Position numbers and translations under genes: made by a program. The notes under the pieces are model-generated. The model ran no database searches. It was given only the letters and a program-made list of their open reading frames with translations, and had not been told where the DNA came from. A stretch of DNA of 64,000 bases from the NCBI RefSeq assembly GCF_000310205.1, contig NZ_AMXE01000001.1, positions 62,001 through 126,000 on the forward strand, in the 5' to 3' direction. The DNA is from Thauera linaloolentis 47Lol = DSM 12138. GTDB taxonomy: Bacteria; Pseudomonadota; Gammaproteobacteria; Burkholderiales; Rhodocyclaceae. The stretch's first letter is position 1. Each line of letters opens with the position of its first letter. Positions 60,157 to 62,352 of this stretch are shown one piece after another.

Positions 60157-61224
60157 ATGGAACACAAGGTCTTCACCAAGCCGGTCCACGTCACGACCTG
60201 GATGGGCGTCTTCCTGGCGCTGGTGGCGCTGCTCGCCGCGGTGCTGGTACCCCAGCTCAAGCACGCCTTCCTCGCCAATCCGGGCTTCAATGGCGTGATC
60301 ATTTTCGTGCTGGCGATCGGCATCGCGGTCAACCTGCGCCAGGTCTGGCGGCTGCAGCGCGAAGTGCTGTGGATCGAAGCCTTCCAGCGCCACCCGGACG
60401 CCGCCCCGGATTCGCTGCGGCCCGCCTTGCTGGCGCCGATGGCGCGGCTGCTGTCGAGCCGCAGGCGCGGCGAGACCCATCTGTCGCCGGCCTCGATGCG
60501 CAGCCTGCTCGACGGCGTGCAGATCCGGTTGGAGGAACAGCGCGACCTGTCGCGCTACCTCATCGGCCTGCTGATCTTCCTCGGCCTGCTCGGCACCTTC
60601 TGGGGCCTGCTCATTACCATCCGCTCGATCAGCGAGATCATCGGCAACCTGAGCGTCGGCACCGACCCGGTGGCGATGTTCGAGGAACTCAAGTCCCACC
60701 TCGACGAGCCGCTCGGCGGCATGGCGACCAGCTTCTCGACCTCGCTGTTCGGGCTCTCGGGCTCGCTCATCGTCGGCTTTCTCGACCTGCAGTCCGGGCA
60801 TGCGCAGAACCGCTTCTACAACGAGCTGGAAGAATGGCTGTCGCACATCACCCGCCTGCCGTCGGCCGCCGGTATCGAAGGCGAGGCGAGCGTGCCGGCC
60901 TACGTGCAGGCCCTGCTGGAACAGACCGCCGAGGGCATGGACCGCATGCAGCGCTCGGCCGCCGAATCCGAACGCGAGCGCCGCAGCACCGCCGACCACC
61001 TCGCCGAGCTCAACACCCAGATCGGCCGCCTGACCGAACTCATCGGCCGCGAATCGCGCGATCTGTCGGCACTGTCCTCGTCGCAGGAAGACCTGCGCGG
61101 CCTGATCCGCCAGATCGCCCAGCAGCCGGCTCAGAACGCGCAGTTCTCCGAAGATCTGCGCGCCGAGCTGCGCCTGCTGTCGCGCACCATCGCCGCAGCG
61201 CTCGGCGGGCAGAAGGCGGACTGA
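60157..61224 (+). CDS. MotA/TolQ/ExbB-like proton-channel protein with long helical tail
   Basis: This 355-residue inner-membrane protein has helices at about 14-33, 45-62, 133-155 and 189-210. The last two are the ExbB/MotA-type pair: LIFLGLLGTFWGLLITIRSI and MATSFSTSLFGLSGSLIVGF, with the small and polar residues typical of the ion path. After about residue 212 it has a Glu/Arg-rich helical tail of about 140 residues, longer than in ExbB. The next gene, three bases downstream, encodes a MotB/OmpA-type partner. Together they look like a force-generating stator. No flagellar, Tol or Exb gene is nearby. GAGGA precedes the ATG. Confidence 0.82.
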   Translation: MEHKVFTKPVHVTTWMGVFLALVALLAAVLVPQLKHAFLANPGFNGVIIFVLAIGIAVNLRQVWRLQREVLWIEAFQRHPDAAPDSLRPALLAPMARLLSSRRRGETHLSPASMRSLLDGVQIRLEEQRDLSRYLIGLLIFLGLLGTFWGLLITIRSISEIIGNLSVGTDPVAMFEELKSHLDEPLGGMATSFSTSLFGLSGSLIVGFLDLQSGHAQNRFYNELEEWLSHITRLPSAAGIEGEASVPAYVQALLEQTAEGMDRMQRSAAESERERRSTADHLAELNTQIGRLTELIGRESRDLSALSSSQEDLRGLIRQIAQQPAQNAQFSEDLRAELRLLSRTIAAALGGQKAD

Positions 61225-61227
61225 GCC

Positions 61228-62352
61228 ATGGCCCGCCTGACCCACCGCCGCGCGCTGGACTTCTGGCCCGGCTTCGTCGACGCCCTGGCCTCGCTGCTGA
61301 TGGTGCTGGTATTCGTCATCCTGATCTTCGTCATCGGCCAGTTCGTACTCGCCGACGCGGTCAGTGGACGCGACCGCGCGCTGGCGAGCCTCAACGCCGA
61401 GCTGGCCGCGCTGGCACAGACGCTGAGCCTGGAACGGTCGGCGCGCGAACAGGCCGATACCCGCGTCGGCGAGCTCAGCGCCTCGCTGACGGGCGCCGAG
61501 CGAGAGCGCGACGCGCTGTCCACCGAACTGCTCAGCGCCCGCAGCGAACTGCACGCCGCGCAGGACGAAGCGCGCGCGCAGCGCGAGGAAGCCGCCCGGC
61601 TGGGCGCCGACATCGCCGCGCTCGAACGCCTGAAGGCCGAGCTCGAAGCCGAGGCCGCGCGCCTCGCCAGCGCCCTCGACACCAGCGAACGCGGCCTCAA
61701 GGAGCAAACCGCGATGTCCGAGCAGGCCATCGCCCAGGTCGAACTGCTCAACCGCCAGTTGGCCGCGGTGCGCACCCAGCTCGAACAGCTCAACGCCGCA
61801 CTGGCGGCCGCCGAGACCGCCGCGCGCGACAAGGATCTCAAGATCGAGGAACTGGGGCGCGAGCTGAACCTGGCGCTGGCCGCCCGCGTGCAGGAGCTGG
61901 CCCGCTACCGCTCGGAATTCTTCGGTCGCCTGCGCGCGGTGCTGGGCGAGCGCAAGGACATCCAGATCGTCGGCGACCGCTTCGTGTTCTCGAGCGAGGT
62001 GCTGTTCCCGACCGCGTCCGACGAGGTCAGCGCCGAAGGCATGATCCAGCTCACCCGCCTTGCCGAAACGCTGAAGGCCCTGGCCGCCGAGATTCCGGCC
62101 GACCTGCCCTGGGTGCTGCAGGTCGACGGCCATACCGACCGCCGGCCCATCGCCACCGCGCGCTTCCCGTCCAACTGGGAGCTATCCACCGCGCGCGCGC
62201 TGGCCATCGTCAAGTTCCTGCGCAGCCAGGGCATCGCGCCGCAGCGCCTGGCCGCCACCGGCTACGGCGAGTTCCACCCGCTGGATGCACGCGCGAGCGA
62301 CGAGGCCTATGCCCGCAACCGCCGCATCGAACTCAAGCTCACGAACCGCTGA
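61228..62352 (+). CDS. MotB/OmpA-like peptidoglycan-binding stator partner with coiled coil
   Basis: This 374-residue protein has one membrane helix at about 17-40 (GFVDALASLLMVLVFVILIF), with Asp 18 at the place of the proton-binding Asp of MotB. A long coiled coil (about 43-230, Ala/Glu/Leu-rich heptads) follows, and an OmpA/MotB C-terminal domain (about 240-374: VLQVDGHTDRRPI, NWELSTARALAIVKFLRSQG, RLAATGYGEFHP) would hold peptidoglycan. It starts three bases after the MotA-like gene. Such pairs occur in alpha- and betaproteobacteria without a known task. Its 3' end overlaps that of the convergent DUF2721 gene by 14 bases. Confidence 0.85.
   Translation: MARLTHRRALDFWPGFVDALASLLMVLVFVILIFVIGQFVLADAVSGRDRALASLNAELAALAQTLSLERSAREQADTRVGELSASLTGAERERDALSTELLSARSELHAAQDEARAQREEAARLGADIAALERLKAELEAEAARLASALDTSERGLKEQTAMSEQAIAQVELLNRQLAAVRTQLEQLNAALAAAETAARDKDLKIEELGRELNLALAARVQELARYRSEFFGRLRAVLGERKDIQIVGDRFVFSSEVLFPTASDEVSAEGMIQLTRLAETLKALAAEIPADLPWVLQVDGHTDRRPIATARFPSNWELSTARALAIVKFLRSQGIAPQRLAATGYGEFHPLDARASDEAYARNRRIELKLTNR

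Follow-up and report, generated by a model that had tools for sequence, protein, structure and literature searches.

A gene for a protein of the MotA, TolQ and ExbB kind is followed by a gene for a MotB-like protein in a 64,000-nucleotide stretch of the Thauera linaloolentis 47Lol genome (NZ_AMXE01000001.1; the whole stretch is referred to as the window), and the locus raises the question of what kind of machine such a pair forms when it stands apart from the gene clusters in which ion-driven stators are expected. Gene A (355 aa; 60157..61224, plus strand) is identified by its open reading frame, alignment, AlphaFold2 model and fold matches as a MotA/TolQ/ExbB-type membrane subunit, while gene B (374 aa; 61228..62352), which lies downstream on the same strand after a gap of 3 nt, encodes a MotB-like member of family NF006543 (PRK09039). 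Both reading frames had been proposed in an earlier, sequence-only reading of this DNA, and both were confirmed.

Genes surrounding the pair

Upstream of A, on the other strand, Pfam identifies a divergent AMP-binding ligase together with genes for branched-chain amino-acid transport, and downstream of B, also on the other strand, a DUF2721 gene and a chemoreceptor (MCP) gene about 0.4 kb away. The 14 kb that follow on the contig contain a methylmalonyl-CoA-mutase-type fusion enzyme, a set comprising an ECF sigma factor, FecR and a TonB-type receptor, and a sensor kinase. A single reading frame of 1120 aa (L182:882-4244) fuses B12-binding, MeaB-like GTPase and methylmalonyl-CoA-mutase domains.

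No flagellar, Tol or Exb genes were found among the neighbours scanned with Pfam, which serve transport, chemoreception and metabolism, and none of nine proteins adjoining the pair matches a defence family of PADLOC at E 1e-5; the Zorya effectors ZorC, ZorD and ZorE were thus not found alongside. Among the neighbours scanned, this agrees with the earlier description of a stator-type layout lacking flagellar, Tol, Exb or defence genes. A functional tie between the pair and its neighbours in the window was considered and rejected, because these are not kept in 16 pair loci of the window's own GTDB family: within flanks of about 1.5 kb, the AMP ligase adjoins the pair in one locus and the DUF2721 gene in three, all from the same genus.

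Predicted architecture of the two proteins

The AlphaFold2 monomer model of A (pLDDT 87.2, pTM 0.64) contains helices at residues 10-29, 31-40, 42-78, 93-102, 111-164 and 171-232, which are compatible with four membrane crossings. On the plus strand, these are assigned to residues 16-34 (60202..60258; from hydropathy and the points at which structural alignments start), 42-60 (60280..60336; model and hydropathy), 131-155 (60547..60621; alignment, model and hydropathy), which carry the motif GLLGTFWGL and the invariant Thr147, and 186-209 (60712..60783; alignment and model), which carry the invariant Ser196. A hydropathy scan with a cut-off of 1.5 marks crossings one to three, whereas the fourth, rich in Ser, Thr and Gly, stays under it. 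The model continues into a predicted cytosolic tail, residues 249-354 (60901..61218, plus strand), formed by helices 249-322 and 328-354. The Pfam MotA_ExbB score of A is 19.6 bits, below the model's cut-off of 22.9. Thr147 and Ser196 are both invariant in a 46-row alignment of A proteins, and in a 39-row alignment they fall in register with the TolQ threonines of GTVWG and of TxxG. When structures were compared with VIA, the TolQ, ExbB and ZorA chains aligned from model residue 28-37, and six of nine MotA/PomA chains aligned from residue 8-13, the other three starting at 22, 34 and 41. These start points fit the presence in A, as in MotA, of an extra first membrane helix relative to TolQ, ExbB and ZorA.

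The corresponding model of B (pLDDT 82.8, pTM 0.47) consists of helices 16-161 and 166-239 and an OmpA fold from residue 245. Its membrane helix is placed at residues 17-42 (61276..61353, plus strand) by the model and hydropathy, the sole strong membrane segment by hydropathy being residues 23-41, and no separate plug helix is visible in the monomer model. A predicted periplasmic helical spacer, residues 43-239 (61354..61944, plus strand), with a break near residues 160-165, leads to an OmpA-type peptidoglycan-binding domain, residues 245-373 (61960..62346, plus strand), which is recognized by Pfam (E 2.7e-14) and the model, and which in a structure search matches the periplasmic domains of MotB and MotS. 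A helix rises 0.15 nm per residue, and the spacer, if straight, would span roughly 29 nm.

These models bear out most of what had been read from the letters. Four membrane helices with a long cytosolic tail had been proposed for A, and the model helices fit this; one membrane helix, Asp18, a long coiled coil and an OmpA domain had been proposed for B, and model, hydropathy and Pfam agree, with about 197 residues of helix. Asp18 (codon 61279..61281, plus strand, from translation and alignment), the conservation of which had been suggested as a check, does not vary among the aligned sequences (24 of 24), and an Asp occupies the position in 80 of 80 loci (the best 80 of 571 found). The label 'proton-type' was an over-reading, as the ion-carrying Asp is common to sodium and proton motors, as is reported for the two Zorya types (PMC11890865), so that the ion of A-B cannot be named from it.

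A catalogued and widespread family

Against NF006543 (PRK09039.1-2, 'peptidoglycan -binding protein'), B scores 421.9 bits over residues 3-374, compared with a cut-off of 305. Six other family members all exceed this cut-off as well, and all match the four sister models too (the set being NF006542-NF006546). The matches place A-B in a catalogued, widespread family, to which the window adds a further member; scores above the NF006543 cut-off occur in 87 of 398 Pseudomonadota genomes, among them that of the window. The closest relatives of B among the best 80 of 571 loci are from a Thauera MAG (84% identical in the best segment) and Denitromonas (74%).

The survey of orthologue neighbourhoods that the sequence-only reading had called for found the pairing to be strongly conserved. 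In 79 of 80 loci (the best 80 of 571 found), A precedes B on a common strand, the remaining locus, L061, starting inside B at a contig end; A also adjoins B in 30 of 30 NF006543-positive loci read in Pseudomonadota genomes and, within the window's GTDB family, in 16 of 16 other loci, of which two have A or B broken or partial. This conservation excludes a chance pairing. A was missed by the choice of reading frame in 9 of the 80 loci, and tblastn recovered eight of the nine, one as only 93 residues at a contig end. Among the best 80 of 571 loci, the distance from the stop codon of A to the codon for Trp13 of B was measured in 78; it is 32-97 nt in 76 of them, the two exceptions having 196 and 351 nt. 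In S. meliloti, as an example of a PRK09039 pair, the gene order and close spacing are the same and the partner is annotated 'MotA/TolQ/ExbB proton channel family protein'; the window copy differs in being without the alphaproteobacterial neighbours and in the length of B, 374 aa compared with about 343 aa in Rhizobium-type members.

Nearer to the window, eight genomes in a sample of 120 from the order match A at E 0.001, namely the window's own, one with a clear relative (G010, 2e-94) and six with weak matches. A viral or mobile origin is unsupported, as no relative was found in a viral contig collection (with a single A protein as query, which detects close relatives only) and the plasmid collection yielded five records with relatives, all of them Rhizobiaceae replicons of 3.5-4.6 Mb.

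Probable orthologues in Komagataeibacter hansenii

K. hansenii, which belongs to a genus without flagella, is described as having adjacent motA (348 aa, four transmembrane helices) and motB (321 aa, OmpA domain) genes, the MotB protein being 46-48% identical over 95-99% to proteins of Rhizobium, Rhodospirillum and Magnetospirillum (Jacek et al., PMC6570709). Full-length identities inside the family are 42-53%, whereas those with flagellar MotB are 25-29% over 98-215 residues. Because the published values fit the in-family range and exceed that of flagellar MotB, the K. hansenii genes are probably orthologues of A-B, as judged from published sizes, layout and identities. Identity over partial length says little, since the OmpA domain of the family also matches a MotD-type protein of the window's own genome, at 39-42% over 76-79 residues. 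The two pairs are alike in size, in the arrangement of four membrane helices in one subunit and one helix with an OmpA domain in the other, in adjacency and in being non-flagellar; they differ in that K. hansenii is an alphaproteobacterial host with a cellulose context, and the likeness is drawn from the published description.

Overexpression of motA/motB in K. hansenii was reported to cause longer, chained cells, altered cellulose and a threefold increase in the speed of colony spreading, and GFP fusions were located at the pole, or at both poles in long cells; when the genes were placed in E. coli, cell shape was unchanged (PMC6570709). Disruption mutants make denser cellulose, according to a review (PMC7347698). 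Outer-membrane invagination was among the options considered by the authors, who keep motility, division and transport as options (PMC6315621). Beyond the Komagataeibacter work, no functional paper on the pair was found in a literature search whose matches were followed in part. The pair had been called undescribed, which does not hold for a locus with a full-score member of NF006543 and probable orthologues with published phenotypes; with regard to prior characterization of close orthologues, named earlier as grounds for refutation, these probable orthologues have phenotypes but no settled task.

A proposed motor of the pole and septum

We favour, with a probability of about one half, the interpretation that A-B is a non-flagellar A5B2 ion-driven motor of the pole-and-septum envelope. 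Five A subunits would surround two B helices in the inner membrane, as in stators of the 5:2 type; ions would pass by way of Asp18 of B and a ring of Thr147 and Ser196 of A, and their passage would move A around B. B would cross the periplasm by means of its long helical spacer and be fixed to peptidoglycan through its OmpA domain, with the tails of A projecting into the cytosol. The task would most likely lie in the envelope at poles and septa, in late division or pole remodelling, parallel to Tol-Pal. A polar site and an effect on cell separation may be ascribed to A-B by analogy with the probable K. hansenii orthologues. The data establish the genes, their domains, the fold class of the single chains, the conservation of the Asp and of the pairing, the family and its distribution; stoichiometry, ion flow and rotation are inferred, as scores of monomer models do not demonstrate an assembly.

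The family score, the adjacency of A and B, the Asp found in 80 of 80 loci (best 80 of 571), the fold matches and the K. hansenii phenotypes all argue for the pole-and-septum motor, the phenotypes more weakly because an overexpressed membrane channel may act indirectly. Counted against it are the unchanged shape of E. coli carrying the K. hansenii genes, the co-occurrence with flagellar genes that is described below, and the scarcity of A in the window's GTDB family, where just 17 of 150 genomes, the window's own among them, were found to have it, so that A is dispensable there.

Gene context elsewhere and a candidate third component

The annotated order in S. meliloti is thiamine phosphate synthase, Sel1-repeat protein, inositol monophosphatase, A and B, followed past B by an ABC exporter on the other strand and then rpmE and DUF1465. 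In Alphaproteobacteria, the pair often stands in such a recurrent block: among 83 loci, made up of the best 80 of 571, the window and two loci of the plasmid collection, Sel1 was counted in 42, the monophosphatase in 61, rpmE in 46 and DUF1465 in 42, in a coarse clustering in which many loci end at contig ends and the monophosphatase group combines proteins of two sizes, about 190 and 267 aa. From its description and its place in the locus order, we infer that the S. meliloti Sel1 gene is that of RgsF (SMc03995), a periplasmic protein of the growing pole and septum that is essential (PMC7327166, PMC5929573), although synteny by itself is no proof of common function. A fragment bound by ChvI in a DNA-binding screen, F10, lies inside S. 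meliloti SMc03993 (PMC3687685), a gene that, by locus order, would be near the A-B pair of locus L051.

Of 111 pair loci, 99 extend for 300 nt or more upstream of A, and a profile search of these found a reading frame with an OmpA-like domain, here designated X, immediately before A and in the same orientation in 18 (for example, L058:7135-8694); ten of the 18 built the profile, some are near-copies of one another (e.g., L022 and L120), and X was not found in the remaining 81. The Pfam OmpA model matches all six X proteins scanned. Thirteen X loci are Rhodospirillales-type records or unplaced alphaproteobacterial or proteobacterial MAGs, and the Defluviicoccus locus (L065) is without X. Complete X proteins have, as judged by eye and with some starts uncertain, a hydrophobic N-terminus, mostly a Pro-rich middle, and AYAG or similar in place of the GHTD motif that is usual in the domain, the Asp of that motif being missing. 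X is absent beside the window pair, and the window's own genome yields only short, weak matches to the OmpA domain (best E 1e-8). X is put forward as a new observation and a candidate third component.

Such a component would be in keeping with a doubtful but possible alternative, in which A-B acts in the manner of ExbBD or TolQR on a periplasmic or outer-membrane partner, perhaps X in Rhodospirillales, and serves energised transport or outer-membrane maintenance. The location of X next to A, the Pro-rich character of X together with its C-terminal OmpA domain, and a GLLGTxWG-type motif common to the cores of A, TolQ and ExbB are consistent with this; however, X is found in a minority of the loci, its place upstream of A is taken in the window by the divergent AMP ligase, its matches in the own genome are short and weak, and B has an OmpA anchor of its own, unlike TolR and ExbD. 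A differs further in its four membrane helices, rather than three, and B in its long spacer. Membership of A-B in TolQR/ExbBD itself was rejected on account of the OmpA domain of B, with its MotB/MotS fold.

A motor for surface spreading or for polysaccharide ribbons, as proposed for K. hansenii, is an unlikely explanation of the pair. The faster spreading and altered cellulose on overexpression and the denser cellulose on disruption speak for it, but longer, chained cells account equally well for the spreading and cellulose effects, and many hosts of the pair form no cellulose pellicle.

Relation to flagellar stators and Zorya

Foldseek searches with A returned ZorAB, ExbB and TolQ at the top with a probability of 1.00, but at E 2e-3 or worse, none reaching 1e-3. 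VIA Z-scores were 12.0 for TolQ, 11.7 for ExbB, 10.2 for ZorA and 9.8 for MotA, and since unrelated helical entries score up to 10.9, they are not decisive alone. Profile comparison gave a probability of 94% with ZorA (E 1e-7, from only three ZorA rows), 74% with TolQ (E 3e-5) and, in hhalign, 44% with MotA, out of register; judged by sequence profile, the core of A is closest to ZorA, ahead of TolQ and MotA. A 39-row tree places A with ZorA and two further groups, split from MotA and TolQ/ExbB with support of 98/96, which is the only split used from a tree with long branches, possible false joins and support of 65/79 for the clade of A's own family.

With flagellar MotAB and PomAB, the pair shares a four-helix A, an OmpA-type B and a conserved Asp, but the sequence core of A differs and the family also occurs in genomes without FlhA. 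Of the 87 B-positive genomes, 80 were tested for FlhA; it is present in 70, the window's own included, which counts against the favoured non-flagellar reading; it is absent from the other ten, which have a listed completeness of 100, and A was read beside B in four of these (G500, G268, G123 and G177). The FlhA-less genomes indicate that the family is not a flagellar one, and membership in flagellar MotAB was rejected on this distribution and on a core unlike that of MotA. That A-B is an auxiliary flagellar stator exchanging with MotAB, as the MotB-type architecture of B, the common co-occurrence with FlhA and the nearby MCP gene might suggest, is rendered very improbable by the FlhA-less genomes, the place of A apart from MotA in the tree, the weak and out-of-register profile comparison and the absence of flagellar genes from the neighbourhood as scanned or annotated.

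The PADLOC models ZorA1 (E 4.9e-14) and ZorB3 (E 1.9e-21) match the pair, as they do other family members, while the NCBIfam ZorA models give A 17.9 bits against a cut-off of 100 (NF033915) and 13.6 against 500 (NF033917). A search for ZorA1 at E 1e-15, a threshold stricter than A's own score, was positive for 4 of 388 genomes, and the window's own is not one of them. A-B resembles ZorA/ZorB in the profile of the A core, the peptidoglycan-binding B and the cytosolic tail, and is unlike them in the extra N-terminal membrane helix of A and the 197-residue spacer of B; about 145 residues follow helix 4 in A, compared with an extension at residues 236-696 described for type I ZorA (PMC11890865). 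Membership in Zorya was rejected because the ZorA scores are far under cut-off and effectors do not lie alongside, and of the likeness suggested by the sequence-only reading, the ZorA-like core and the missing effectors stand, whereas the pair is not a Zorya member. An anti-phage motor of ZorAB type with effectors lost or distant, for which the PADLOC and profile matches and the patchy presence in the window's GTDB family might be cited, is scarcely probable given the 17.9-bit score, the nine neighbouring proteins free of PADLOC matches and the recurrent housekeeping location in many Alphaproteobacteria.

Implications for the classification of stators

In a 2025 classification of 379 stator-type proteins, non-flagellar B subunits are described as having neither an OmpA-type domain nor a long linker, and the tree presented there does not include ZorAB (PMC12505986). 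With a non-flagellar A and an OmpA-anchored, long-spacer B, the PRK09039 family is a case for which the published restriction of OmpA domains to flagellar stators fails. We suggest, tentatively, that PRK09039 pairs constitute a widespread class of their own among peptidoglycan-anchored, ion-driven motors, to be set next to Mot, Tol, Ton, Agl/Gld and Zor. Such a motor would act at pole and septum, would combine the core of ZorA with the topology of MotA and the anchor of MotB, and in Rhodospirillales would drive X as a dedicated exported partner. If this is true, many Alphaproteobacteria and some Beta- and Gammaproteobacteria hold an unassigned energy-converting machine that is apt to be annotated 'MotA', 'MotB' or 'ExbB'; it could help to account for the transmission of force to the wall at poles and septa alongside Tol-Pal. 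The pair would also be a test case for the kinship of flagellar stators, Tol/Ton motors and Zorya, as it mixes features held diagnostic of each.

Other stator-like genes

Several further genes of this kind were observed. A DUF802 protein of the window's own genome (L019, G000:C44:893-4357) matches A weakly (E 4e-8) and adjoins a DUF3348 gene, making it a second stator-like gene in that genome; similar matches occur in L015, L016 and L018. MotA/ExbB-like proteins of about 450 aa are encoded after what, by eye, is a secretion membrane-fusion-like gene in two short loci (L013:1447-2781 and L014:805-2169), within which no MotB-like gene was seen. The protein list of Bartonella includes a MotA/TolQ/ExbB entry of 235 aa. 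Finally, a genome of the same order encodes a 607-aa protein (L017:1258-3081) that is weakly A/ZorA-like, has no Pfam MotA_ExbB match and is followed just downstream by a MotB-like gene, and the two may constitute a Zorya-type pair.
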